Positions 1-18,580 of a stretch of DNA of 64,000 nucleotides are shown here, in pieces. The notes beneath the pieces were generated by a model. It made no database searches. It had not been told where the DNA came from and saw only the letters and a list, made by a program, of their open reading frames with translations. The stretch is from Stigmatella aurantiaca DW4/3-1 (GTDB lineage Bacteria; Myxococcota; Myxococcia; Myxococcales; Myxococcaceae). Made by a program: the position numbers and the translations under genes. The DNA lies in assembly GCF_000165485.1 (NCBI RefSeq), contig NC_014623.1:1383501-1447500 (forward strand). Direction: 5' to 3'. Position 1 is the first letter of the stretch. Every line of letters begins with the position of its first letter.

Positions 1-3000
1 GGCTGACGTACCGGGAACTCGATGAGCACGCCTCGCGCGTCGCCTGGCGCCTGCGCCAGCTGGGCGTTCAGCGAGAGGCGCGCATCGGGGTGGGCATCGG
101 CAAGTCCGTGGAACTCATCGTGGGCATGCTGGGCGTGCTCAAGGCGGGGGGCGCATACCTGCCGCTGGACCTCAATTATCCAGCCGAGCGGCTCGCCTAC
201 CTCGTGAGAGATGCGTCGCCCGCCGCGATTCTCAACGTGGGGGTGGATCCGATCCCGGACACCGCCATCCCGCGCATCGACGTCTCCCAGGTCATGGCCG
301 GGGAGAAGGCGCCCCCTGGGTTCGTGCCAGAGCCCGTTCTGATGGAGAACCTGGCTTACGCCATCTACACGTCCGGTTCGACGGGGGCACCCAAGGGCGT
401 GCTCGTCTCGCACCGGAACATGATGAACCTGGTCGCCTGGTACGTCGAGGACGCCCAGCTCACCGCGGAGGACCGGGTCACGCAGGCCTGCAGCACCACG
501 TTCGACGTCTCGGTCATGGACATTTGGCCGACGCTCGTGACCGGCGCCGCGCTCTATCTCGTCTCGCCCGAGCTGCTCTTGAGCCCCTCGGAGTTGCCGC
601 GCTGGCTGACGGAGCGCCAGATGACGGTGAGCTTCCTTCCGACGCCGATTGCCGAGGCAGCGCTCGCGCTCAAGTGGCCCGAGTCCTCCAAGCTCCGGCT
701 GATGATCACGGGCGGTGATCGCCTCCACGTTTTCCCCCCGCCAGACGTCCGTTTTCAGCTCATGAACATCTACGGCCCTGCCGAGACGACCGTGGCCTCC
801 ACGGCCGCCATCTTCGAGCCGGGGCTTCAGGAGGGGCTGCCTTCCATTGGTCGGCCGGTCGCCAACGACCGCATCTACATCCTGGACCGCTCGCAGCGGC
901 CGGTCGCCCCTGGAATCCTGGGCGAGCTGTACATTGGTGGCATCGGTGTCTCCCGTGGATATCTGAACAGGCCCGAGCTCACCGCCACCCGGTTCGTGCC
1001 GGATCCGTTCTCCGGTGAGCCTGGGGCGCGGATGTACGCCAGTGGTGACCTCGCGCACTTCCTCCCGGATGGAAACCTGGCGTTCCACGGCCGCTTGGAC
1101 CGCCAGGTCCAGGTCCGAGGTGTCCGTGTGGAGCTCGGGGAGATCGAGGCCACGCTGGCCGAGCACCCTGGTGTCAGCGCCGCCGCCGTGGTGAGCGAGG
1201 GGCACCAGCAGAATGGCGACGTGCGTTTGATCGCCTTCGCCGCCTGCGCCGCGCCGAACCCGCCGGACGCCGATGCCCTCTCGGCTCACCTCTCGAAGAA
1301 GCTGCCCGACGCGTATCTGCCGAGGCGCATCATCGTGATCGGCGAGCTGCCGCTCACGCCGAACGGCAAGGTCGACTACATCAAGCTGGAAGCGCACGCC
1401 AAGGAGTTGCAGGACCGGAAGGAGCGCGTCGCGCCCAGGACGCCCCACGAGGAGATCCTCGCCGGGATCTGGAGCGCGGTGCTGGGACGGGACCAGGTGG
1501 GCGTGGAAGATGACTTCTTCGCGCTCGGCGGCCACTCGCTCAAGGCGACGCAGGTCATCGCGCGTGCCCGCGAGGCGTTCGGCGTCGAGCTGCCGGTCCG
1601 GGCGATCTTCGAACGGAGGACGATCGCGCTCCTCGCCGAGGCCGTCTCCGGGCAGGCGGGCGCCGCCGCGCCGATTCCGCGCATCGATCTGTCAGGGGAC
1701 GTCCACCTTGCCCCTGGGCAGGAGAGCCTGTGGTTCATTGATGCGCTGGGCGGGAGCAGCGCCGCGTACAACGTGCCGCTCGTGATGCAGCTCAACGGGG
1801 TGCTCGACCTCACGGCGGTCTCACGGGCGGTCTCGCTCCTCGTCGAGCGCCATGAGGCGCTCCGCACCACTTTTCATGAGCAGTTGGGGACACCCGTTCA
1901 GCGGATCCATCCAGCCCCCGTCTCCCCGCTCTCGTGCGAGGAGGTCTCCGCGGAGGTGCTCGAGCAGCGGATCGCGGAGGAGATCGCCACGCCCTTCTCG
2001 CTGACGGCGGGTCCGCTGTTCCGGGCCCGGCTCTTCCGGGTGGCGCCAGAGAAGCACACCCTGGTCTTCAACCTGCACCACATCGTGGTGGACGCATGGT
2101 CGCTCGGCGTCATGCTCCGGGAGTTCTGCACGGCGTACAGCGTGTTCACGGGCGGAGGCACGCCTGCGCTGCCCGCGCTGCCGATCCGCTATGCCGACTG
2201 GGCTGAGTGGCAGCGGCAACGGCTGATTGCGGGCCGGCTTGAAGAGGGCCTGGGCTACTGGAGACAGACCTTGCGGGGCGCCCCCCCGCTGCTCACGCTG
2301 CCAGGGGATCGCGCCCGTCCGACGCGCCAGAGCTTCCGGGGCAAGACACACGCCTTCGTCCTGGATGCCGAGATTGGGCGCCGCCTTGGGACGCTCTCGA
2401 GGAACTCGGGGGCCTCGCTGTTCATGACGCTCCTGAGCGCCTTCGCGGCGTACCTCGGACGGCTCAGCGGCCAGGATGATCTGGTGATCGGCTCGCCCTC
2501 GGCCAACCGGGACCGGAGCGAGACGGAGGAGGTCATTGGCTACTTCCTCAACACGATCGCGCTGCGCATGGATCTGTCTGGGGATCCGTCTTTCACGGAA
2601 CTCCTCCAGCGTGTCCGCAAGGTGGCGCTCGACGGCTTCGTGTACCAGGACATCCCCTTCGAGAAGGTGGTGGCCGCGCTCGAGCTGCCTCGTGCCCTGT
2701 CGCACAACCCCTTGTTCCAGGTGATGTTCGCCCTCCAGGGGCAGAGCGGGGGAGAGATTCAGCTCCCGGGGGTTCGCGCCACCCTGCCCACGCCCGACAG
2801 CCCGACGTCGAAGTTCGATCTCACGCTCTTCGTCGAGCCTCGGGAGGACGACGCCTTCGCTTGCCTCCTCGAGTACAACACCGACATCTTCGATGAGGAT
2901 CGGATCCACCGGATGGCCGCGCACCTGGTCCGGGTGCTCGAGGCCGTGGCCGAGGAGCCTGAGCTGCGCATCTCGGAAATCCCCCTCTTGTCCTCCGAGG

Positions 3001-6000
3001 AGCGGCAGCTGATCGCGCAGCTCGGCCAGCCGGGCCGCCCGTATGACGGCCGGACGCTGCTGGAGCTGTTCGAGAAACAGGCGGAGAAGACGCCCGATGC
3101 GGCTGCCCTCGAGCATCGGGGGGAAGTGAAGACCTATCGCCAGCTCAGCCATGAGGCTGGGCTCCTCGCTGACCGGCTCGCCGAGCTGGGGGCGGGCCCG
3201 GACGTCAGGGTGGCCCTCTGCCTGGATCGTTCGAGCACGGCGATGGTGTCCGTCCTTGCGATCTTCAAGGCCGGTGCCACGTATGTCCCGATCGATCCCA
3301 CCGAGTCACCCGAGCGCCTCCGTTTCATTCTGGGGGACGCGAAGGCCCGCATCCTCGTCACGGAGAAGAAGTACCGCGAGCTGAGCACCCTGCCCGGGGT
3401 CGAGTGCCTCTGGGTGGACGGCGGCGCTGCGCCCGCGGTGAAGGCCCCGCGGCCCAAGGTGGAGCCTCACCACCTCGCCTGCGTCCTCTATGCCTCGGGG
3501 GCTGGGGGGGAGCCCAAGGGCGTCGCCATGCCGCACCGGGCGTTGGGCAACCTGGTGGCGTGGCACACCGCTCAGTCCCGGCGCCTGCGGACGCTCCAGT
3601 ACGCCGTGCTCAACACGGGGGCCTCGCTCCAGGAGATCTTCTCCACCTGGTGTTCGGGAGGCACCCTGGTTCTGGACAGTGATGCCCACCGGCTCGCCCC
3701 TCTGGCGCTCGTTCAGCTCCTCGAAGAGGCTCGCATCCAACGCCTCTTCCTTCCGGCGGGAGCGCTCCATCCCCTCGCGCATGAGGCCGTGAACACGGCC
3801 CGGCCGGTGTCTCGCTTGGAGGAGGTCATCACCGCGGGCGAGCAGCTCCGGATCACCGAGTCCATCCGAGGGTGGTTCGCGGCCAGCAGCAAGAGGCTTC
3901 GCAGCCAGTACACCCTCGCGGAAGCCTCCGTCGCCGCGGCGCATGATCTCACCGGCAGCCCCGAAAGTTGGCCGGGGCTCCCCCCCATTGGCCGGCCGAT
4001 CCCCAACACCGCCGTCCACCTGCTGGACGCCCACCAGCGCCCTGTCCCCGTTGGCGTGCCTGGCGAAATCTACATCTCCGGGGCCTGCCTCGCCGATGGC
4101 TACCTGGCACGGCCAGAGCTCACCGCGGAGCGCTTCCTCGAGCTCAGCGTCGATCCTCCCGTTCGTGCGTTCCAGACGGGTGATCTCGGACGGCTGCGCC
4201 GGGACGGAACGATCGAGTTCCTTGGGCGCGCGGACGGGCAGATCCTTGTCCGCGGCATCCACGTCGAGCCCGGTGAGGTCGAGCGTGTGCTGTGCGCTCA
4301 TCCCAGCATCCTGGATGCCGTGGTTGTCGCCGCTGGAGATCCCTCGCGAGAGCAACGGCTCGTCGCCTACGTCACACCAGAGACCGCGCGGGCCGATGAG
4401 CTGCCCGCGTTTCTCTCGGCCCGAATCCCCGAGTACATGGTGCCCTCGCAGTTCGTGGCGCTCTCCGCGTTGCCCCGGACGCTGGGAGGCAAGGTGGAAC
4501 GCCGCGCGCTCCCCGCGCCCGGTCAGCCGGGACGGAGAGGGGCCGCCACCGGGCCTCGCACGGCGATGGAGGAACTCGTCGCCCAGGCCTTCGAGCAGGT
4601 GCTGGGGCGGAGCCCCGTGGGCCTCCAGGAAGACTTCTTCCAGATGGGGGGCAACCCCAGTCTGGCGCTGCAGGCCGTCGCGCGCATCAGCGCCGCGGTG
4701 AAGGCCGAGGTCCGGGTTTCGGATCTGCTCAAGAACCCATCCGTCGCTTCCCTGAGCCGGGTGATCAACGAGCGCCACGGCCTCCGGACACCGTCCACCT
4801 CCGGGCTCGAGCACGCCCCGGAGAGCGACCGCATCCCCTTGTCCTTCTCGCAAGAGCGGCTCTGGTTCCTTGAGCAGCTTTATCCGGGCACGGCGGTCCA
4901 CAACCTGTCCACGGCGCTCCGGCTCAGGGGCGCGCTGGATTCGGGCGCGCTCATCGAGAGCCTGACCGGCATCATCCAGCGGCATCCGGTTCTGGGGATG
5001 CGCTTCGTCGAGCGGGACGGCCATGTCTGGCAAGAGTCTCGGGGGCAGGGGGAGGCACCCTTCGAGCTGTCCGTGCCCGGCTCTGTCTCGGCCGAGGAGC
5101 TTCGCCGGTTGCTCGTGGAGGAGGCGGCGCGTCCCTTCGATCTGGCCAACGGTCCGCTTTTCCGCACGCGGCTCTTCCGGCTCGATGACCGTGAGCACGT
5201 CCTGGCCGTGACGATGCACCAGGCGGTGGGCGATCCCGCGTCGCTTCGCGTCTTCGTGCGGGAACTCTCCCAGTTCTACACCGCGCTTGCCTCGGGGCGG
5301 CCGGCATCACTCCCCAAGCTGTCCGTGGACTACCTGCGCTACGCGCGCGAGCAGCGGCGCTACCTCCAAGGGGAGGCGCTGGAGGCGCGGCTGGGTTACT
5401 GGAAGCAGACCCTCAACGGTGCGCCTGGGGCGCTGGGCCTGCCCGCGGACCGGCTGCGGCCGCCACAGCCCAGCTTCCGGGGTGCCACGCAACGGCTTGC
5501 ACTCAGCCGTGGTCTGAGCAAGGGGCTCGAGACGCTGAGCCATCGCTTGGGTGTGGCGGGAGTCGAAGTCCTCTTGAGCGGCTTCGCCGCCTATCTCTCG
5601 CGCATCACGGGACAGGAGGACATCGTCATCGGTCTGCCGGTGGCCCACCGTGAGCGTGCGGAGTTCAAGCCGCTGATCGGCCATTTCGAGGGGGCCCTGC
5701 CGATCCGTATCAACCTGTCCTCCAACCCCACCTTCGAGGAGCTCATTGCCCGCGTGCGCTATGCCACCCTGGGCGCGTACGCCAACCGGGACGTTCCGCT
5801 CGAGAAGATTGTCGAAGTGGCCGATACCGAGCGGGATCTGAGCCAGACGCCCTTGTTCCAGGTCGTGCTCGCGCTCCACGACGCGTCCGAGGGCCGCGTG
5901 AGCCTCCCGGCGCTCAGCTTGGAGCCGCTCAGCCTGGAGTTGGGGACCGCGAAGTTCGACCTCGCGCTCCTCTTCGAGCCTGTGGCCGGTGAGCTGACGG

Positions 6001-9000
6001 GCGTGATCGAGTACAGCACGGACCTCTTCGACGCGGACCGCATCGAGCGGATGGCGGGGCACATCCTGACGGTCTTCGAGGATGCCATGGCCTACCCTGG
6101 GAAGCGGCTCTCGGAGCTCTTGCTCCTCCCCGCGGAAGAGCGAAAGGCCGTCTCCGCGTTGGCCAAGGGGCGGGTGCTCCCTCCGGCCCGTCAGGTTCCC
6201 GTCCACAAGCTGGTGGAGGAGCAAGCGCAACGCGCGCCGGACTCGATCGCGCTCGAACTGGGCGGAGCGGTCCTGACGTACGGCGAGCTCAACGAGCGGG
6301 CGAACCGCGCCGCGCACCAACTCATGGACTTCGGGGCCGGGCCCGAGAAGCTGGTCGCGCTGGCGGTCCCGCGCTCCTTCGAGCTGATCATCGGCCTGCT
6401 CGCGATCTGGAAGGCGGGAGCAGCCTACGTCCCGCTCGACCTTTCGTATCCGAAGGCCCGGCTCGACACCATCTTCGAGGACTCGGGTGCCAGGCTCCTC
6501 GTGAGCACACACGCCGCCGAGGCCAAATGGCGTGCACCGCACGCGCGCACGCTCTGGCTCGATGATCCCCCGGCCTCCGGACGCGGTGGGAATCCGGACA
6601 GCGGCGTCCGCATGGAGAATGCGGCCTACGTCATCTACACATCGGGGTCCACGGGACAGCCGAAGGGCGTCATTCTCGAGCACCGAGGGCTCGCGAACGT
6701 CATCGAGATGCAGCGGCACGAGCTTGCCGCTGACTCCAGTTGCGTCATGCTTCAGTTCTCTTCGATCTCCTTCGACGTGTCGGTGTGGGAGATCGTCATG
6801 GCCCTGGCCAACGGGGGGAGGCTCGTGCTGGCCCCGGCGGACACGTTGCTCGCGGGTGAAGAGCTGGCCAAGGTGCTGATCAACCACCGGGTCACGCACA
6901 TGGTGCTGCCCCCGACTTCCTACGCGGCGCTGCCCGCCGATCGGGAGTACCCCTCGCTCCGGCTTCTGCTCTCGGCGGGCGAGGCCCTCCCTCCAGAGGT
7001 CGTGAACACGTGGGCCAAGCCCAGCGTGCAGTTCGTCAACGCGTACGGTCCGACGGAGGTGACCATCATCTGCACGCTCGGCCAGTGCAAGCAGGGGGAT
7101 CCCGGCGCTCCGACGATCGGCCGGCCTGCCTTGAACCTGGAAGGGTATGTCCTCGACAGCCACGGCGAACTGCTCCCCATCGGCGTTCCGGGAGAGCTTC
7201 ACCTGGGGGGCATCGGGGTGGCCCGGGGTTATTTGAACCGCGATGAACTCACCCGGCAGAAGTTCATCCCCCATCCGTTCAAGCCCTCCGAGCGGTTGTA
7301 CCGGAGTGGAGACTTGGTGCGGTGGCGCAAGGACGGCAACCTCGAGTACCTCGGGCGCATTGATCACCAGGTCAAGCTGCGCGGCTACCGGATCGAGCTG
7401 GGTGAGATCGAAGCGGTGCTCGCCACCCACGCAGGGGTCGCGAAGGCGGTGGTCATCGTCCATGCCGCTGGGGCCTCTGGCGGAGTGAAGCTCCTGGTGG
7501 CCTATGTGGTCCCGGCTGGGCCGGTGGACGCGCACGCCATCCGGGATCACGCCAGGAAGCGTCTCCCGGAGTTCATGGTGCCCTCCGAGATCATCCTGAT
7601 GGAGGAGCTCCCCCTCACCTCCAGTGGCAAGGTGGACAAGAAGCGTCTGCCGCCGCCGCGTCTGGAGGAGCACGAGGCCCGTGCGTCTTTCGAGGCCCCC
7701 CGTACTCCCACGGAGCAGACCCTGGCGGCGCTCTGGGAGGAACTGCTCGAGAGGCGCCCGATTGGCACTGGGGACAACTTCTTCCAGCTGGGGGGCCACT
7801 CGCTCCTGGCGGCCCAGGTGATGAGCCGTGTCCGGAGGGCCTTTGGCGTCGAGGTGCCACTCTCCGCCATCTTCGAGCAGCCAACGCTCGCGGCCCTGGC
7901 CTCGGTGATCGCGGCCAAGGAGGCCGCGCCGCAACTCCCGCCGCTGGTGCGGCTGAAAGGAACGGGAGACCGTCCGCTCTCGTTCTCGCAAGAGCGCCTG
8001 CGCTTCCTCGCGGAACTCGAGGGAGACAGTGCGGCGTACAACATCCCGATTGCGCTCTCCCTGCGAGGACAGCTCAACGAGGGCGCGCTGTCGCGCAGCC
8101 TCAAGCGGGTGGTGGATCGTCACCAGCCCCTGCGCACCCGCTTCCCGCTCGTGGATGGCCAGCCGGTGGCCCGTCTGATCGAGGGGGACCTGCCCCTGGT
8201 GACGGAGGATCTCCGCCGCCCGGGCGCGCCACCGCTCGACCAGCGCCTGAGGGAAGAGTCCTCCCGTCCCTTCGTGCTCGAGAGCGGTCCCGTTGTCCGC
8301 GCGCACCTGTTCAAGACCGCCGAGCAGGAGCATGTGCTCCTGGTGGTGATGCACCACATCGTGTCTGACGGCTGGTCGTTCGGCGTCATGATGCGCGAGA
8401 TCTCGCAGCTCTACGCGGCGGAGGTGCGAGGGGAGACGCTGGCGCTCCCAGAGCTTCCGATTCAGTACGCGGACTACGCGGCGTGGCAGCGGAGCTGGCT
8501 CGATGGACACGTCCGTGACCAGCAGCTCGCCTATTGGCGGGGCGCGCTCGCGGGGGCTCCGGCCGTTCTGGAGCTTCCGGCGGATCGGCCCCGGCCCATC
8601 GTCCGGAGCCATCGCGGCTCGGTCGAACCCCTGGAGTTGGAGCGCGGCGCGGTGCAAGCGCTCACCGCGCTCTGCCGCCAGGAGGGCGTGACGGCCTACA
8701 TGGCGCTCCTCGCGGCATTCGGCGCCTACCTGGGCCGTGTGAGCGGGCAGGACGATGTGGTCATCGGCTCGCCCTTCGCGGGCCGCCGGATCGCCGAGAC
8801 GGAGCCGTTGATTGGCTTCTTCGTGAACACGCTGCCGCTCCGCGTCGATCTCGGTGGGGATCCGTCCTTTGTCGAACTCATCCAGCGCGTGCGGCGCCAG
8901 GTGCTCGCGGCCCACGAGAACCAGGACGTTCCCTTCGAGAAGCTCGTCGAGGTGCTCAACCCGGAGCGTGCCCTGGGAACGAGCCCGATCTTCCAGGTCA

Positions 9001-11948
9001 TGCTGGCCTTCCAGCAGGCGCGTCCGGAAGGGTTGGAGTTGTCGGGCCTGGAGGTCAAGCCGGTGGTCATGCCGACTGGGACTTCCAAGTTCGATCTGAC
9101 CCTGTCGTTGGAGGAGACGGGGCAGGGCGTCCAGGGGTGGCTCGAGTATGATCTCGACCTGTTCGACGCCCGGCGCGTCCAGGCGATGGTGCGCCAGCTG
9201 ACCGGCTTCATCGCGCGTCTCACCGCAGCCCCCGGGGCGAGGATCTCGGAGGCGGATCTGCTGAGCGTCGAGGAGCGCGCGCGTCTCACCCCCAGCGCTC
9301 CCGAGGAGATGCCCCGCCTCCCGGCTGTCCACGAGGTCATCGCGGCGCAGGCGAAGAAGACCCCCGGGGCCGTGGCCATCGAGGCCGAGGACGGCACGCT
9401 CAGCTACGCGGAACTCGAGGCTCGCTCGGGAGCCATTGCCCAAGAGCTTGTCCGGAGGGGCGTTGCGCCGGGCACGCTGGTGGCCATCGCCGTGGAGCGC
9501 TCCCTGGGAATGATGGTGGGGCTGCTCGGGATCCTCAAGGCGGGGGCTGCCTACGTCCCGCTCGATCCTGCGTACCCGCGCGAGCGGCTGGCTTTCATGC
9601 TCAAGGACAGCGGCGCCCGGGTGGTCATCACTCAGGAGCACCTCGCGCCGATGTTCCCAGATGCCGAGGTGCTGGTGCTCGGCCAGTCCCCGCAGGGCTT
9701 GTTCGAGCCTCGGAGTGGATCGCTCGCCTACTGCCTGTTCACCTCGGGTTCGACGGGCCAACCGAAGGGCGTTCTGATCGAGCATTCGAGCCTCGCCAAT
9801 CACATGGAGTGGATGCGCGAGGCCTTGCCGCTCGGCCCAGAGGACCGCGTGCTCCAGCGCACCTCGCTCAGCTTCGATGCCTCGGTCTGGGAGCTGTTCG
9901 CCCCGCTGATGGCCGGGGCGCGTCTCGTGCTCGCACCGCATGGCTTGGGCGCGGACACGGAGCACTTGGCCCGCGTGCTGCGGGAGCGCGGCATCACCGT
10001 GCTTCAGCTGGTCCCCTCGTTGCTGACGGCGCTGGTGGAAGAGCCTGGACTCGCGGGCGTCACCACGCTCCGGCGCGTGTGCGTGGGAGGCGAGCCCCTG
10101 CCTTCGGCCACGGTGAAGAAGCTCTTCGGCGTCTGCAAGGTGGAGGTCTGGAACCTGTACGGGCCCACCGAGGCGACCATTGATGCGCTCGCGCACCAGT
10201 GTCGGCCCGAGCAGGTGGGCGCACACGGGGCGACCGAGCCCATCGGTCTGCCGATCCTCCGCATGAAGGCGCTGATCCTGGACGGCAAGCTTCGTCCCGT
10301 TCCGGATGGTCTGCCCGGTGAGCTCTACCTCGCTGGGCCCGGCTTGGCGCGCGGTTACTTGAACCGGCCCGAGCTGACCGAATCGCGCTTCATCGAGCAC
10401 ACCTTCCCAGGAGGCCCCAAGCTTCGGATGTACAAGACGGGCGACATCGTCCGGCGTCAGGCGGATGGAACGGTCCTCTTCACCGGCCGCGCCGATCGGC
10501 AGGTCAAGCTGCGCGGCTATCGGATCGAGCTCGGTGAGGTCGAAGCCGCGCTCGCCCGCCATTCGGCCGTGAGGGACGCGGTCGCGCTGGTGAGGGGCGC
10601 GAGCGGGGACGCACGGCTGGTGGCCTTCGTGGTGCCGAGGGCGGGTGAGAAGCGGCCCGAGGTGGCCGATCTCCGGAGCTTCGTGGAGCAGCAGCTCGCG
10701 GCACACATGGTTCCTGGACAGTTCGTCCTTCTGGAGACGCTGCCCCTGGCGCCCAACGGCAAGGTGGACTTGCGCGCGCTCGCCGCGATGGAGATTGCCG
10801 AGGAGCACGTCGCCTCGCGGGGCGGCCTCCCGCGCGATGCCCTGGAGCTCGAACTCGTGCGGTTGTTCGAGGAGATTCTCGGCATCCGCTCCGTGGGGAT
10901 CCACGACAGCTTCTTCGAGCTGGGGGGCCACTCCTTGCTCGCGCTCAAGTTGAAGCTCGCGGTCGAGAAGCGGTTCAACCTTCCGCTCCCCTTGGTGTCC
11001 CTGTTCCGGAACCCGGCGCCCGCGCAGCTCGCGGAGCTCCTCCGGGGAGGGACCTCGGCGGAGTCCCCGCTGGTTCCGCTCACGCCGTCCGCCCGCGCGC
11101 TCCTGGGCGCTGGACCCCCAGGCAGCGGGTCTCGCCGCGCGCCCACGCTCTTTCTGGTCCCGGGGGGCGGCTCCACGCCGTTCTATCTCCTCTCCCTGGC
11201 ACGGCACCTGGAAGGCGCCGCCGTGTTCGGCCTCCAGCCTCGCGGGCTCGATGGAGAAGCCCCGCCTTACGAGACGGTCGAGGACATGGCCACCGGGTAC
11301 GCGGACGCGATCCTCTCCGTTCAGCCCGAGGGGCCCTACTTCGTGGGGGGCCACTCCATGGGAGGACAGATTGCCTATGAGATCGCCCAGGAGCTCAAGG
11401 CGCGAGGCCACGAGATCGGCCTCGTGGCGCTCCTGGACACCCTGGCGCCATTCCCGGAGGTGACACGGCCGGTGGGACAGGGCTGGGATACCGCGCAATG
11501 GCTGCTCCACCTCGCCGCCATCATGGAGGGGTTCTTCAACGTCAAGATTGGCCTGGAGCTGAGCGAGGTGAGTGCGATGGGCGAGGCCGAGCGCCTCGAG
11601 TCCTTCGTGGAGCGCCTGCAGTCCGCCGGCATCCTGCCCGCCGGTGCGCAGCCCAGCCATGTGATGGGGATCCTCAACGTGGCGCGGGCCCATGACGCGA
11701 TGAACTACCAGCCCCGCCGCAGGCAGCAGGTCCCCCTCGCGGTGTTCCGCGCCGAGGACAGGGACGGGTCCGCCCCGCCAGAGCTCAAGGCGCTCTTCGC
11801 GGAGGACACGCTCGGTTGGAGCCGCTTCACGCGGGGGCCCAGCACGGCCTATCGCGTCCCGGGCTCGCACATGACGCTGATTCGAGAGCCCCACACCGAG
11901 GTTCTCGCCAAGCACCTGTGGGCGAGTCTGACCGGATCTCAGTCCTGA
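1..11948 (+). CDS. Nonribosomal peptide synthetase, C-terminal four modules plus thioesterase (5' partial)
   Basis: The frame is open from base 3, where an A1 motif (LTYREL) is already in progress, so the start lies upstream of the window. Order by nucleotide: A1 3-1400, PCP1 (Ser codon 1536); C2 about 1690-2950 (HHxxxD at 2076), A2 3050-4530, PCP2 (Ser codon 4659); C3 about 4830-6100, A3 6210-7660, PCP3 (Ser 7800); C4 7960-9230 (HHxxxDG at 8352), A4 9330-10790, PCP4 (Ser 10932); type I thioesterase 11130-11930 with GHSMGG (Ser codon 11355). The TE marks this as the last protein of the assembly line and would release the peptide. A1, A3 and A4 have good core motifs (YTSGSTG or FTSGSTG, YGPxE). 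A2 and C3 are degenerate: A3 motif YASGAGGEPKG, A5 replaced by SQYTLAEAS, C3 with HQAVGDP instead of HHxxxDG. No epimerization domain fits between modules. The A4 specificity residues read DAWQCGLIDK, close to a glutamine code; the other codes gave no assignment. Confidence 0.96.
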   Translation, partial: LTYRELDEHASRVAWRLRQLGVQREARIGVGIGKSVELIVGMLGVLKAGGAYLPLDLNYPAERLAYLVRDASPAAILNVGVDPIPDTAIPRIDVSQVMAGEKAPPGFVPEPVLMENLAYAIYTSGSTGAPKGVLVSHRNMMNLVAWYVEDAQLTAEDRVTQACSTTFDVSVMDIWPTLVTGAALYLVSPELLLSPSELPRWLTERQMTVSFLPTPIAEAALALKWPESSKLRLMITGGDRLHVFPPPDVRFQLMNIYGPAETTVASTAAIFEPGLQEGLPSIGRPVANDRIYILDRSQRPVAPGILGELYIGGIGVSRGYLNRPELTATRFVPDPFSGEPGARMYASGDLAHFLPDGNLAFHGRLDRQVQVRGVRVELGEIEATLAEHPGVSAAAVVSEGHQQNGDVRLIAFAACAAPNPPDADALSAHLSKKLPDAYLPRRIIVIGELPLTPNGKVDYIKLEAHAKELQDRKERVAPRTPHEEILAGIWSAVLGRDQVGVEDDFFALGGHSLKATQVIARAREAFGVELPVRAIFERRTIALLAEAVSGQAGAAAPIPRIDLSGDVHLAPGQESLWFIDALGGSSAAYNVPLVMQLNGVLDLTAVSRAVSLLVERHEALRTTFHEQLGTPVQRIHPAPVSPLSCEEVSAEVLEQRIAEEIATPFSLTAGPLFRARLFRVAPEKHTLVFNLHHIVVDAWSLGVMLREFCTAYSVFTGGGTPALPALPIRYADWAEWQRQRLIAGRLEEGLGYWRQTLRGAPPLLTLPGDRARPTRQSFRGKTHAFVLDAEIGRRLGTLSRNSGASLFMTLLSAFAAYLGRLSGQDDLVIGSPSANRDRSETEEVIGYFLNTIALRMDLSGDPSFTELLQRVRKVALDGFVYQDIPFEKVVAALELPRALSHNPLFQVMFALQGQSGGEIQLPGVRATLPTPDSPTSKFDLTLFVEPREDDAFACLLEYNTDIFDEDRIHRMAAHLVRVLEAVAEEPELRISEIPLLSSEERQLIAQLGQPGRPYDGRTLLELFEKQAEKTPDAAALEHRGEVKTYRQLSHEAGLLADRLAELGAGPDVRVALCLDRSSTAMVSVLAIFKAGATYVPIDPTESPERLRFILGDAKARILVTEKKYRELSTLPGVECLWVDGGAAPAVKAPRPKVEPHHLACVLYASGAGGEPKGVAMPHRALGNLVAWHTAQSRRLRTLQYAVLNTGASLQEIFSTWCSGGTLVLDSDAHRLAPLALVQLLEEARIQRLFLPAGALHPLAHEAVNTARPVSRLEEVITAGEQLRITESIRGWFAASSKRLRSQYTLAEASVAAAHDLTGSPESWPGLPPIGRPIPNTAVHLLDAHQRPVPVGVPGEIYISGACLADGYLARPELTAERFLELSVDPPVRAFQTGDLGRLRRDGTIEFLGRADGQILVRGIHVEPGEVERVLCAHPSILDAVVVAAGDPSREQRLVAYVTPETARADELPAFLSARIPEYMVPSQFVALSALPRTLGGKVERRALPAPGQPGRRGAATGPRTAMEELVAQAFEQVLGRSPVGLQEDFFQMGGNPSLALQAVARISAAVKAEVRVSDLLKNPSVASLSRVINERHGLRTPSTSGLEHAPESDRIPLSFSQERLWFLEQLYPGTAVHNLSTALRLRGALDSGALIESLTGIIQRHPVLGMRFVERDGHVWQESRGQGEAPFELSVPGSVSAEELRRLLVEEAARPFDLANGPLFRTRLFRLDDREHVLAVTMHQAVGDPASLRVFVRELSQFYTALASGRPASLPKLSVDYLRYAREQRRYLQGEALEARLGYWKQTLNGAPGALGLPADRLRPPQPSFRGATQRLALSRGLSKGLETLSHRLGVAGVEVLLSGFAAYLSRITGQEDIVIGLPVAHRERAEFKPLIGHFEGALPIRINLSSNPTFEELIARVRYATLGAYANRDVPLEKIVEVADTERDLSQTPLFQVVLALHDASEGRVSLPALSLEPLSLELGTAKFDLALLFEPVAGELTGVIEYSTDLFDADRIERMAGHILTVFEDAMAYPGKRLSELLLLPAEERKAVSALAKGRVLPPARQVPVHKLVEEQAQRAPDSIALELGGAVLTYGELNERANRAAHQLMDFGAGPEKLVALAVPRSFELIIGLLAIWKAGAAYVPLDLSYPKARLDTIFEDSGARLLVSTHAAEAKWRAPHARTLWLDDPPASGRGGNPDSGVRMENAAYVIYTSGSTGQPKGVILEHRGLANVIEMQRHELAADSSCVMLQFSSISFDVSVWEIVMALANGGRLVLAPADTLLAGEELAKVLINHRVTHMVLPPTSYAALPADREYPSLRLLLSAGEALPPEVVNTWAKPSVQFVNAYGPTEVTIICTLGQCKQGDPGAPTIGRPALNLEGYVLDSHGELLPIGVPGELHLGGIGVARGYLNRDELTRQKFIPHPFKPSERLYRSGDLVRWRKDGNLEYLGRIDHQVKLRGYRIELGEIEAVLATHAGVAKAVVIVHAAGASGGVKLLVAYVVPAGPVDAHAIRDHARKRLPEFMVPSEIILMEELPLTSSGKVDKKRLPPPRLEEHEARASFEAPRTPTEQTLAALWEELLERRPIGTGDNFFQLGGHSLLAAQVMSRVRRAFGVEVPLSAIFEQPTLAALASVIAAKEAAPQLPPLVRLKGTGDRPLSFSQERLRFLAELEGDSAAYNIPIALSLRGQLNEGALSRSLKRVVDRHQPLRTRFPLVDGQPVARLIEGDLPLVTEDLRRPGAPPLDQRLREESSRPFVLESGPVVRAHLFKTAEQEHVLLVVMHHIVSDGWSFGVMMREISQLYAAEVRGETLALPELPIQYADYAAWQRSWLDGHVRDQQLAYWRGALAGAPAVLELPADRPRPIVRSHRGSVEPLELERGAVQALTALCRQEGVTAYMALLAAFGAYLGRVSGQDDVVIGSPFAGRRIAETEPLIGFFVNTLPLRVDLGGDPSFVELIQRVRRQVLAAHENQDVPFEKLVEVLNPERALGTSPIFQVMLAFQQARPEGLELSGLEVKPVVMPTGTSKFDLTLSLEETGQGVQGWLEYDLDLFDARRVQAMVRQLTGFIARLTAAPGARISEADLLSVEERARLTPSAPEEMPRLPAVHEVIAAQAKKTPGAVAIEAEDGTLSYAELEARSGAIAQELVRRGVAPGTLVAIAVERSLGMMVGLLGILKAGAAYVPLDPAYPRERLAFMLKDSGARVVITQEHLAPMFPDAEVLVLGQSPQGLFEPRSGSLAYCLFTSGSTGQPKGVLIEHSSLANHMEWMREALPLGPEDRVLQRTSLSFDASVWELFAPLMAGARLVLAPHGLGADTEHLARVLRERGITVLQLVPSLLTALVEEPGLAGVTTLRRVCVGGEPLPSATVKKLFGVCKVEVWNLYGPTEATIDALAHQCRPEQVGAHGATEPIGLPILRMKALILDGKLRPVPDGLPGELYLAGPGLARGYLNRPELTESRFIEHTFPGGPKLRMYKTGDIVRRQADGTVLFTGRADRQVKLRGYRIELGEVEAALARHSAVRDAVALVRGASGDARLVAFVVPRAGEKRPEVADLRSFVEQQLAAHMVPGQFVLLETLPLAPNGKVDLRALAAMEIAEEHVASRGGLPRDALELELVRLFEEILGIRSVGIHDSFFELGGHSLLALKLKLAVEKRFNLPLPLVSLFRNPAPAQLAELLRGGTSAESPLVPLTPSARALLGAGPPGSGSRRAPTLFLVPGGGSTPFYLLSLARHLEGAAVFGLQPRGLDGEAPPYETVEDMATGYADAILSVQPEGPYFVGGHSMGGQIAYEIAQELKARGHEIGLVALLDTLAPFPEVTRPVGQGWDTAQWLLHLAAIMEGFFNVKIGLELSEVSAMGEAERLESFVERLQSAGILPAGAQPSHVMGILNVARAHDAMNYQPRRRQQVPLAVFRAEDRDGSAPPELKALFAEDTLGWSRFTRGPSTAYRVPGSHMTLIREPHTEVLAKHLWASLTGSQS

Positions 11949-11951
11949 CCG

Positions 11952-12434
11952 ATGAGCCTCCTCGTTCTGCTCAGGCTCGTGCACTTGGTCGCCGTGGTGG
12001 TGTTCCTGGGCGACATCGCCGTGACGGCCGTCTGGAGATTGCTCGCGGACCGGACCCGGGAGCCCCGGGTCATCGTCTATGCCCTGCGTCTGGTCCTGTT
12101 CACCGACAAGTATCTGCTGATGCCGAGCGTGCTGGTGCTCGTCGTCACGGGGTTCCTGAGCGCGCATCTCCAGGGCATCTCGCTCTGGTCAAACCCCTTT
12201 TACGCGCTGGGGCAGATCCTCTTCATGGCGTCCGGTGTGCTCTGGAACGTCGTGCTCCGTCCCGTGCAGAGCCGCCAGTTGGGCCTCGCCGAGTCCCTCG
12301 GCGCCTCGGAAGCGCTCTTCGCGGACTACTTGCTGCTCACGAAGAAGTGGCTCCGCTGGGGCCTCCTGACGATGGCGTGCGCCTTTGGGTCCATGGTCCT
12401 GATGGTGCTGGCGGGGGCCAGAGGCTCACCGTAG
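11952..12434 (+). CDS. Four-helix integral membrane protein (DUF2269-like)
   Basis: A 160-residue protein with about four hydrophobic helices: residues 1-25, 50-75, 80-100 and 130-158. The start (MSLLVLLRLVHLVAVVVFLG) and the general layout resemble small predicted membrane proteins of the DUF2269/CopD-like type, whose function is unknown. The ATG lies 3 bases after the NRPS stop codon, so the two are almost certainly on one transcript and possibly translationally coupled. That context suggests a role connected with the peptide, such as export or self-protection, but nothing in the sequence proves it. The DUF assignment is by resemblance only. Confidence 0.75.
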   Translation: MSLLVLLRLVHLVAVVVFLGDIAVTAVWRLLADRTREPRVIVYALRLVLFTDKYLLMPSVLVLVVTGFLSAHLQGISLWSNPFYALGQILFMASGVLWNVVLRPVQSRQLGLAESLGASEALFADYLLLTKKWLRWGLLTMACAFGSMVLMVLAGARGSP

Positions 12435-13434: not shown

Positions 13435-14244
13435 ATGACGCGTAGCGCTGGCCTCCCGGCACGGTCCATCGCAGACTTGCGCCGCGTGTATTCCCTCCTC
13501 CCCTGGCTCTTCGTGGTGTTGATGGCGTCGACGGCTTCGGCCGCCTGTCCGGAGGACGGGGTGCAGATCTTTCCCCGGCCGGGGTCCGTGGTCCCCACCA
13601 ATACGCGCTTGTTGCTCGAGGGGATTGGGACGGCGCGGGGGCTGGTGGCGGACCTGCCGGGGAAGACGGTGCGCCTTCAGACGGCGGGCCACGAGGTGCG
13701 CGCCCGCATCCAGCGGGGGTGGACGAGCACCCTGGGCCGCGCCACCGTCTTGCTCAAGCTCGACGGGACGCTGTTGCCGGACAAGGTCTACATCCTGCGG
13801 CTGGATGATGTGCTGCCAGGGACGGTGGCGCTGCTCAACGGCGCTGGGCCGATGACCCTGCCCGAGTGGCGTTCCGGCAAAGGGCCCGACAAGACGGGGC
13901 CCTACTGGCTCAAGCGCCCGGCGGTCTCCGAGGGCTTCTCGCGCCGCAGCGAGCAGGGGACCACGCGCTACGTCCGGTTGACGCTGGCCGCGCGGGAAGA
14001 GAGCCCCACCTATATGGTGGTGACGCTGACGCGCAAGCGCTCGGGGGCCTCGGCCCAGCACTACGTGGTGCCAGTGGTGAATGGCACGGCCATGTTGGGC
14101 CACGAGCCGTGCAGCGGAGCCTTCGCCTTGGAGGATGGGAAGAGCTATCGGGCTCGGGTGGAGGTCTTCGACGCGGCGGGGAACCTGGCGCCGGCGGTGC
14201 CCCCCATGGACTTCGAGGCGCCTGCCGCGCCTCCCGGTGGATAG
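13435..14244 (+). CDS. Exported protein of unknown function
   Basis: The frame is open from 13378, but ATG 13435 gives a sensible protein of about 269 residues: a basic N-region, a hydrophobic stretch (LLPWLFVVLMASTASA) and a likely signal-peptidase I site before ACPEDG. An in-frame GTG at 13486 would also leave the signal peptide intact. The mature part has beta-rich character and no motif I recognise. The short repeats of aromatic and charged residues suggest an immunoglobulin-like or other beta-sandwich fold, but this is only an impression. hemF starts 8 bases after its stop, so the two are probably cotranscribed. Confidence 0.7.
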   Translation: MTRSAGLPARSIADLRRVYSLLPWLFVVLMASTASAACPEDGVQIFPRPGSVVPTNTRLLLEGIGTARGLVADLPGKTVRLQTAGHEVRARIQRGWTSTLGRATVLLKLDGTLLPDKVYILRLDDVLPGTVALLNGAGPMTLPEWRSGKGPDKTGPYWLKRPAVSEGFSRRSEQGTTRYVRLTLAAREESPTYMVVTLTRKRSGASAQHYVVPVVNGTAMLGHEPCSGAFALEDGKSYRARVEVFDAAGNLAPAVPPMDFEAPAAPPGG

Positions 14245-14252
14245 GAGGGTCG

Positions 14253-15176
14253 ATGACGTTGGACGTGGAGAAGGTGGAGCGGCTGAAGGTGCGGATGGCG
14301 GAGTTCATCCGGCAGCTGCAGGACGAGATCTGCGCGGGGCTGGAGACGCTGGATGGCAAGGGGCGCTTCCGGGAGGATGCCTGGGAGCGCGCGGGCGGAG
14401 GCGGCGGGCGCTCGCGGGTGCTGGAGGGCGGCTCGGTGCTGGAGAAGGCCGGGGTGAACACCTCGGTGGTGTACGGCCAACTGGAGGAGGCATTCGCCCA
14501 CAAGCTTCAGGGAGAGGGACGGTATTTCTGGGCCGGAGGGCTGTCGTTGGTGCTCCACCCGCGCAACCCGCACGTGCCCACCGTCCACGCCAACTTCCGC
14601 TTCATTCACCAGGGGCCCAAGGCGTGGTTCGGGGGCGGCGCGGACCTGACGCCCTACTACCTCTATGATGAGGACGCGGTGCACTTCCACCGCACGCTGA
14701 AGGCGGTGTGCGACCGGTACGATCCGTCCTACTACCCGCGCTTCAAGAGCACCTGCGACAAGTACTTCTACCTGCGCCACCGCGAGGAGTGCCGGGGGGT
14801 GGGCGGGTTGTTCTTCGAGGATTTGGGCGGACAGGACTTGGAGCGCGAGCTGGCGTTCGTGATGGATGCGGGCCGCGCGTTCCTGCCGGCGTACCTGCCC
14901 ATCGCCGAGCGCCGCAAGGACGTCGCCTCCACCGAGCCGCAGCGTTTCTGGCAGGAGGTCCGCCGTGGGCGCTACGTGGAGTTCAACCTCGTGTACGACC
15001 GGGGCACGGTGTTCGGCCTGGAGACGAAGGGGCGCACGGAGTCCATCCTCATGTCGCTGCCGCCCCAGGTGCGGTGGCTCTATGACCATCACCCGGTCCC
15101 CGGCAGCGAAGAGGAGCGGTTGGTCGACGTGCTGCGAAATCCCCGGGACTGGGCCGCGGGAGGCCAGGAAAGGTAA
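14253..15176 (+). CDS. hemF: Oxygen-dependent coproporphyrinogen III oxidase
   Basis: HemF converts coproporphyrinogen III to protoporphyrinogen IX using O2, the aerobic step of heme synthesis, in the cytoplasm. At 307 residues it matches the family length. Recognisable family blocks are VHANFRFI, the glycine-rich WFGGGADLTPYYLY, the FHRTLKAVCD region, GGLFFEDLG, the RGRYVEFNLVYDRGT block and the final LMSLPPQVRW region. The start ATG 14253 has a clear AGGAGGG ribosome site at 14243-14249. The neighbour upstream is an exported protein, and the next gene starts 9 bases downstream, which suggests a short operon of otherwise unrelated functions. Confidence 0.95.
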   Translation: MTLDVEKVERLKVRMAEFIRQLQDEICAGLETLDGKGRFREDAWERAGGGGGRSRVLEGGSVLEKAGVNTSVVYGQLEEAFAHKLQGEGRYFWAGGLSLVLHPRNPHVPTVHANFRFIHQGPKAWFGGGADLTPYYLYDEDAVHFHRTLKAVCDRYDPSYYPRFKSTCDKYFYLRHREECRGVGGLFFEDLGGQDLERELAFVMDAGRAFLPAYLPIAERRKDVASTEPQRFWQEVRRGRYVEFNLVYDRGTVFGLETKGRTESILMSLPPQVRWLYDHHPVPGSEEERLVDVLRNPRDWAAGGQER

Positions 15177-17149: not shown

Positions 17150-17215
17150 GGCGGCCAGGAGGCAATCTTCCCGGCCGTTCACGGATTTGTTGGGAAAGTG
17201 TTCGCACGTGCTAGG

Positions 17216-17845
17216 GTGGCATCCCCCTTGGCCACCGACGACCTTACCCTCGTCAAGCGCGTTCGTGACGGCGACCAGCGCGCTTTCAAACTCCTCGTCG
17301 AGCGCTACCAGCGCAAGGTGTATGCCGTCGCGCTCGGCATGCTCAAGGACAAGGAGGAGGCGATGGACGTCTCGCAAGAGGCGTTCGTCAAGGTTTACAA
17401 GTACTTGGACCACTTCAAGGGGGACTCGTCCTTCTACACGTGGCTCTACCGCATCACCGTCAACATCTGCATCGATCTCATCCGCAAGCGCACCGGTGCG
17501 GGGGGCGAGGCGGTGGAGTTCGACGAGACCCAGGTGATGGACGTGTCCCAGGCCAACATTGGTGCGCTGGGCAGCCGCCTGGGCACCAATCCCCAGAAGA
17601 GCGCCCTGCGCCGGGAACTGGCCGAGAAGATCCAGGAGGCCCTGGCCACCGTGCCCGAGAAGCACCGGGCGATTCTCCTGCTGCGGGAAATCGAGGGCAT
17701 GTCCTACGAGGAGCTCTCGCGCACGCTGGACATCCCCAAGGGCACCGTGATGAGCCGGCTTTTCCACGCGCGCACCAAGGTCCAGAAAATCTTGAGTGAA
17801 TACCTGGAGTTGGATGAGGCAAAGAGCGGCGTGGGGAGTGAGTGA
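17216..17845 (+). CDS. rpoE1: ECF-type RNA polymerase sigma factor, RpoE1-like
   Basis: A 209-residue sigma-70 family protein with only regions 2 and 4. Region 2 shows DGDQRAFKLLVERYQRKVY, the EEAMDVSQEAFVKVYKYL block and the YTWLYRITVNICID helix. Region 4 shows LPEKHR-type and EGMSYEELSRTLDIPKGTV, with the SRLFHART recognition end. It closely resembles the RpoE1 sigma factor described in Myxococcus xanthus, which affects motility and development. GTG 17216 (reading MASPLATDD) is the preferred start because the residues before it look unconserved; GTG 17198 is possible. The anti-sigma gene lies 90 bases downstream. Confidence 0.92.
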   Translation: MASPLATDDLTLVKRVRDGDQRAFKLLVERYQRKVYAVALGMLKDKEEAMDVSQEAFVKVYKYLDHFKGDSSFYTWLYRITVNICIDLIRKRTGAGGEAVEFDETQVMDVSQANIGALGSRLGTNPQKSALRRELAEKIQEALATVPEKHRAILLLREIEGMSYEELSRTLDIPKGTVMSRLFHARTKVQKILSEYLELDEAKSGVGSE

Positions 17846-17935
17846 GGAGGCGTGGAATATCGGGCTGGAATCCCCGTCACACCGGAGCATCGTCACTTTT
17901 CTGAGGGTGGCGTCACCAACTTTTGAGAGAGTCCA

Positions 17936-18580
17936 ATGGCCGGTAATCCTGCATGCGAGCGGTTCATCCCGTTCCTGTCTCCCTACATTGATGGAGAGTT
18001 GACGCCGGCGGAGCGCGTCAACGTGGAGCGCCACCTGTCGGCCTGCAAGGAGTGCGTGGGGCGCACGGCGGACCTGCGCGCCGAGTCCGGGCTGCTGCGG
18101 GTGGGCCTGGACATGGCGGTGGATGACGTGGACTTCAAGGACTTCACCCAGAAGGTGATGGCCCGGATTACCCCCGAGAAGCCGCCCCTGCTGGAGCGCC
18201 TCAAGCTGTCGCTCTCGGAGATGTTCCTCTACCAGCGCACGGCGATGGTCTCCTCGCTGGCCACCGCGGCCGTGTTGACGCTGGTGGCCGTGCCCCTGCT
18301 GATGCGCGGCCGGGCCCCGGAAGGGTACGGCGCCGAGCGGATGACCGTGCAGCGGGTGAGCACCTATGAGCCCTCCCGGGTGGCGCCGGTGGTGATGGAG
18401 ACGGACAACGGCGGCGCCATCATCTGGCTTGTGGACCAAGACACACCGGGAAACCTCTCCGGGCAGGACGAAGACACCGTCCCCGGCCAGGGACTGGAGC
18501 GGGACGCGCCGAGGCAGGAAGATGCTCCCCGGCCGAAGAACCCGGCGGCGCCGCCGGACACCCAGGGAGGTTCCTTGTGA
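17936..18580 (+). CDS. Membrane anti-sigma factor with zinc-finger (ZAS) domain
   Basis: A 214-residue protein. The N-terminal cytoplasmic domain carries the ZAS zinc motif HLSACKEC (His-x3-Cys-x2-Cys, residues about 32-39), which in this family binds and holds an ECF sigma factor. A single transmembrane helix follows at about residues 100-122 (AMVSSLATAAVLTLVAVPLL), then a Pro/Asp/Glu-rich periplasmic tail of about 90 residues that could be the sensing or protease-sensitive part. It sits directly behind the RpoE1-like sigma gene and overlaps the next gene by GTGA. Its target is therefore inferred to be that sigma factor. It has no recognisable RseB-binding domain. Confidence 0.88.
   Translation: MAGNPACERFIPFLSPYIDGELTPAERVNVERHLSACKECVGRTADLRAESGLLRVGLDMAVDDVDFKDFTQKVMARITPEKPPLLERLKLSLSEMFLYQRTAMVSSLATAAVLTLVAVPLLMRGRAPEGYGAERMTVQRVSTYEPSRVAPVVMETDNGGAIIWLVDQDTPGNLSGQDEDTVPGQGLERDAPRQEDAPRPKNPAAPPDTQGGSL

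Follow-up and report, generated by a model that had tools for sequence, protein, structure and literature searches.

Purifying selection persists on a catalytically degenerate module of the probable myxochromide S synthetase gene mchC in Stigmatella

Excerpts of the citing literature present myxochromide S as the first example of a natural nonribosomal peptide synthetase (NRPS) skipping one of its modules, with very few others known. PMC5984369 and PMC4849084, in the parts that refer to Wenzel et al. 2005 ChemBioChem and 2006 Angew. Chem., report that module 4 (proline) is bypassed and that the product is a pentapeptide; a partial text of PMC2636758 reports that the cloned S. aurantiaca cluster yields myxochromides S1-3, with Corallococcus macrosporus GT-2 among its heterologous hosts. 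Module skipping itself is already known. Here we analyzed a 64,000-nucleotide stretch of contig NC_014623.1 (the window), which holds the greater part of an NRPS gene, mchC, with a degenerate module, and we add to the published picture that this dead module occurs in all four own-genus mchC genes, that its proline-type pocket appears decayed, and that purifying selection on it has continued. Within the open-licence literature searched, no paper was found joining myxochromide with purifying selection, and none was found that brings together at least three of the four subjects NRPS, module skipping, purifying selection and inactive adenylation domain.

The gene lies on the forward strand (window 3-11948, stop included), as do all its domains given below, and starts upstream of the window; in the genome its frame measures 4,474 codons between stops, and the last 3,981 residues fall inside the window. 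Pfam recognized four adenylation (A), three condensation (C) and four peptidyl carrier protein (PCP) stretches and one thioesterase (TE) in the in-window part, and a further C domain (C1) was located in the same frame upstream. The A-type mchA-mchB-mchC layout given in the accessible part of PMC9581180 consists of a polyketide synthase (PKS), a C-A-MT-PCP-C-A-PCP-E NRPS and a four-module NRPS with a TE, and the locus showed the same order: upstream of mchC stands a PKS gene with KS, AT, DH, KR and ACP domains (its start outside the stretch examined), and between the two an NRPS whose domains run C-A-MT-PCP-C-A-PCP, followed by a third stretch of the condensation type, which is read as the E domain. 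Glycopeptide clusters with inactive modules had been the first guess and were dropped as this layout pointed to myxochromide. An excerpt of PMC12192607, published in 2025, gives the mch C domain motifs as HHxxxDAWS for the skipped module and HQxxxDPAS for C5, and the window carries HHIVVDAWS in C2 and HQAVGDPAS in C3. With high confidence, the gene can be assigned to mchC of the myxochromide S synthetase, its degenerate stretch representing the skipped proline module; the cluster very likely belongs to Stigmatella aurantiaca DW4/3-1. Compared with the published Stigmatella MchC through the motifs quoted in that citing paper, not by sequence, the inactive skipped module 4 and both motifs were the same and no difference was seen. 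The original prediction, that the product may be one residue short or the module skipped, accords with the skipping of module 4 published for myxochromide S, as far as the partial sources go.

The degeneration covers three neighboring domains, namely A2 (3096..4523), PCP2 (4536..4778) and C3 (4806..6143), the last being the C domain of module 5. The motifs quoted in the original prediction were all found again: YASGAGGEPKG in place of the A3 loop of A2 (3489-3521), TGASLQE in the A4 region (within 3609-3644), SQYTLAEAS in the A5 region (3903-3929), GGNPSL in PCP2 (within 4635-4688) and HQAVGDP, without the second His, in C3 (5217-5237). Its statement that the PCP2 motif is one residue longer than GGHSL proved wrong, since GGHSL and GGNPS align without a gap and Pro (codon 4656-4658) stands in place of the attachment Ser. 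The motifs examined in the remaining A, PCP and C domains of mchC showed no loss (C2 carrying HHxxxDA), in agreement with the claim that all other domains are intact. To quantify the losses, family-invariant residues were defined for each domain type as those at least 98% conserved among 34 reference domains from Myxococcus, against which A2, PCP2 and C3 fell short beyond chance. A2 of the window gene kept only 77 of 96 such residues (75-77 across the four own-genus genes), versus 89 in A1 (89-95), 95 in A3 (94-95) and 95 in A4 (94-95); C3 kept 39 of 47 (39-40), versus 43 in C1 (43 in all four), 46 in C2 (45-47) and 45 in C4 (45-46); and PCP2 kept 9 of 14 (9-10), versus 14 in PCP1 and PCP3 and 13 in PCP4 in every gene, although little can be drawn from only 14 positions. 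In A2, 24 invariant columns were altered in at least one of the four relatives, 13 of them in core motifs that we take to be A3, A4, A5, A7 and A8, while the A10 and P-loop Lys residues and the A7 Asp were retained in all four. Set against an active NRPS elongation module (C-A-PCP), the module lacks the attachment Ser in the PCP and, in the A domain, P-loop residues and the pocket Asp, so that module 4 (A2, PCP2) is, judged by its lost catalytic residues, inactive. Among the PDB sequence relatives of A2 is 1AMU.

Orthologues were collected by searching the TE against 145 genomes of the order (E ≤ 1e-60), which gave matches in 13 genomes, the window genome included: four of the seven listed own-genus genomes (the window genome, G077, G078 and G079) and nine from one other genus, Myxococcus. 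All 13 mchC genes were aligned and none was dropped. In all four own-genus genes, A2 has lost the A3 loop, the A4 FD and most of the A5 YGPTE, and PCP2 has Pro instead of its attachment Ser, whereas the A2, PCP2 and C3 motifs were canonical in all nine Myxococcus genes. In C3, the motif reads HQxxxDP in the window genome, HHxxxDH in G077 and HQxxxDH in G078 and G079; the Gly and Trp after the Asp were lost in all four and the second His in three. The A2 pocket was DVQVIAHVV in all nine Myxococcus genes, which under our assumed pocket numbering we take to be a proline code, and GAQGIAQVA (window gene) or GTQGIAQVA in the four own-genus genes; the dead A2 is thus, as its pocket indicates, a descendant of a proline-type A domain whose pocket has decayed. 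Degenerate residues in active orthologous modules, named beforehand as the case that would speak against the original prediction, were looked for and occurred in none of the 13 genes, the nine intact ones all being canonical. A sequencing error or assembly artefact, for which no support was found, is exceedingly improbable: the losses recur in four own-genus genomes, which differ among themselves at many synonymous sites. Loading of the module in trans, which had also been proposed, was rejected, as the PCP2 attachment site lacks Ser in every one of the four own-genus genes.

Codon models were then applied to each domain of the four own-genus mchC genes, the runs with the dN/dS ratio (ω) fixed at 1 keeping kappa at its estimate. 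The ω values were 0.166 for A2, 0.104 for PCP2 and 0.133 for C3, compared with 0.023-0.107 for the ten other domains and 0.022-0.066 in Myxococcus (four of the seven four-module genes); that of PCP2 fell within the range of the other domains, yet above those of the remaining PCPs (0.023-0.058). For every domain ω = 1 was rejected, with twice the log-likelihood difference (2ΔL) reaching 284 for A2, 70 for PCP2 and 287 for C3. A branch model built on the four own-genus genes and three of the seven Myxococcus four-module genes yielded ω of 0.160, 0.097 and 0.126 for A2, PCP2 and C3, respectively, within the own-genus crown, with ω = 1 again rejected (2ΔL of 298, 76 and 306), a neutral-scaled crown length of 3.1-3.6 per codon for the dead domains, and a stem ω of 0.261 for PCP2, the highest of ten domains. 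Because their losses are common to all four genes, the death of A2 and PCP2 is placed by parsimony before the crown, and therefore the purifying constraint acted afterwards and cannot be put down to the loss being recent; the loss of the second His of C3 could not be placed before the crown, since G077 still has it. These results strongly indicate that the catalytically dead module is still under purifying selection in its own genus. The suggestion that the loss may be maintained is borne out by all four own-genus mchC genes, in which the module is dead, the frame open and the sequence under purifying selection.

The same data bear on the view that the module is a decaying relic without constraint, not yet deleted. 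Core-motif residues of A2 have gone, and the four relatives differ at 10 of its 96 family-invariant positions versus one each in A3 and A4, though at eight in A1. When the crown was compared with Myxococcus in nine domains (C1, C2, A2, PCP2, C3, A3, C4, A4 and TE; A1, PCP1, PCP3 and PCP4 stood outside the run), A2 was significantly relaxed (2ΔL 31), as were C3 (ω of 0.126 versus 0.066, 2ΔL 11.9) and C2, and the other six were not. Against this stand the ω values of 0.10-0.17, the rejection of ω = 1 with 2ΔL of 70-287 and 76-306, and the frame open in all four own-genus genes. Beyond the family-invariant positions, the dead domains were no more variable than the active ones (122 of 402 positions in A2, 111 of 412 in C3 and 14 of 69 in PCP2). 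As stated, the relic view is refuted by the ω tests and is very unlikely to hold, while in a weaker form of it the constraint may act only against misfolding of the giant protein.

As to how the module is skipped, in the Stigmatella lineage the substrate pocket and residues of the P-loop are gone from A2, the attachment Ser from PCP2 and the active-site motif from C3, so that a Leu-ended chain on PCP1 cannot stop on PCP2. We propose that C2 (1686..3023), the condensation domain belonging to the skipped module 4, would then most likely take the Leu chain from PCP1 and join it directly to the Ala on PCP3, with A2-PCP2-C3 forming a folded, inert insert and C2 together with A3-PCP3 acting as one working module around it. 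That C2 rather than C3 makes the bond is quite probable, because the active site of C2 is kept (HHIVVDA, with 45-47 of 47 invariant residues) and that of C3 is not (39-40 of 47). The C2 motif alone tells little: the available part of PMC12192607 links HHxxxDA in C2 with module skipping, and the motif was present in all 13 orthologues, the window gene included. Since nine of these have A2, PCP2 and C3 intact, HHxxxDA alone does not point to skipping in this family.

A different course, worded in the review PMC4849084 as far as its excerpt goes, has the chain pass over PCP2, from Leu-PCP1 to PCP2 and then to elongation with Ala from PCP3. It is highly improbable, because PCP2 is without its attachment Ser, the residue being Pro in all four own-genus genes; the Ser found beside the site in the window gene corresponds to Arg in two of the others and to His in the third. 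Rather less remote, though still unlikely, is that C3 despite its HQxxxDP makes the bond by taking the Leu chain straight from PCP1, with C2 idle. Purifying selection on C3 (ω 0.126) would fit such a role, and the loss of the Gly and Trp after its Asp in all four genes and of the second His in three argues against it.

Several observations weigh against condensation by C2 across a maintained dead stretch. G077 retains both His residues in C3 (HHAVGDH), and relaxation of C2 (ω of 0.107 versus 0.060 in Myxococcus, 2ΔL 10.7) is of much the same degree as that of C3, both of which would suit C3 as the catalyst; dN/dS does not separate C2 from C3. Six of the 47 family-invariant positions vary in C3 among the four relatives, equal to C1 (six) and compared with two each in C2 and C4; relaxation of PCP2 in the crown versus Myxococcus was absent (2ΔL 0.01); and C2 would have to reach PCP3 across about 1,000 residues. 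With condensation by C2 still preferred, the insert is presumably kept for folding or geometry. One possible but tentative form of this is that the dead A-PCP-C is a structural part, which sets the spacing of PCP1, C2 and PCP3 or docks them, allowing C2 to condense across it, with selection keeping the fold; clean removal of A2-PCP2-C3 would in that case hurt production. A dead module that is common to the genus and still selected offers a way into how skipping works: into the identity of the bond-forming C domain, and into whether the module is needed or just a passive insert.

Seven of the nine Myxococcus mchC genes have four modules (L016-L022) and two have three (L023, L024). The four-module genes, whose form is that expected for an A-type myxochromide, share with the window gene the domain order, a mean per-domain identity of 54-83% and HHxxxDA in C2; they differ in their intact A2, PCP2 and C3 and in the A2 pocket DVQVIAHVV. 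The three-module genes are likewise one module short of the four-module form, but were shortened by deletion, not inactivation, with A3, PCP3 and most of C4 gone and the A2, PCP2 and C3 motifs intact; the junction in L024 maps inside the C-terminal part of a C domain. They are in line with the C-type of PMC9581180, as far as its accessible part describes it, and their deletion represents another route to a shorter peptide. A further search returned nine loci. L003, L004, L005 and L007 were taken as genomes already counted; L003 (BNCN01000004.1), which carries mchC, is labelled Comamonas sp. KCTC 72670, a label that is possibly wrong. L008-L011 were weak relatives (27-47% identity) and were not used. 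L006 (L006:1-20861) stood outside the orthologue counts, and is a metagenome-assembled genome labelled Acidobacteria, with a relative of mchC whose A2, PCP2 and C3 motifs are intact and whose TE is 69% identical.

The other in-window domains of mchC are intact. A1 (3..1418), belonging to module 3 of the assembly line and beginning upstream, is matched by Pfam AMP-binding and has intact motifs in all 13 orthologues. Its pocket was DVMPIGIVA in the window genome and G077, and DAW[AV]LGNVV in G078, G079 and the nine Myxococcus genes; over frame residues 481-780 the window gene was 58-67% identical to G078 and to G107 (Myxococcus), which were 70-83% identical to each other, and part of A1 looks to have been replaced in the window lineage. 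PCP1 (1431..1658) has GGHSL. The motifs and invariant residues likewise mark as intact A3 (6231..7673; alanine position, pocket DVWTLAAII), PCP3 (7686..7913), C4 (7956..9293; HHIVSDG), A4 (9336..10778; glutamine position, also by its pocket) and PCP4 (10806..11033), and the TE (11121..11945; GGHSMGG, Pfam Thioesterase) ends the gene. The genome is a single contig of 10,260,756 bases, and the window has a GC content of 68.1%. Directly 3′ of mchC lies a small DUF2269 membrane protein (11952-12434), followed by an open frame containing coproporphyrinogen III oxidase (13866-15176), and at 17198-18580 an ECF sigma factor precedes a putative zinc-finger protein, perhaps an anti-sigma factor.

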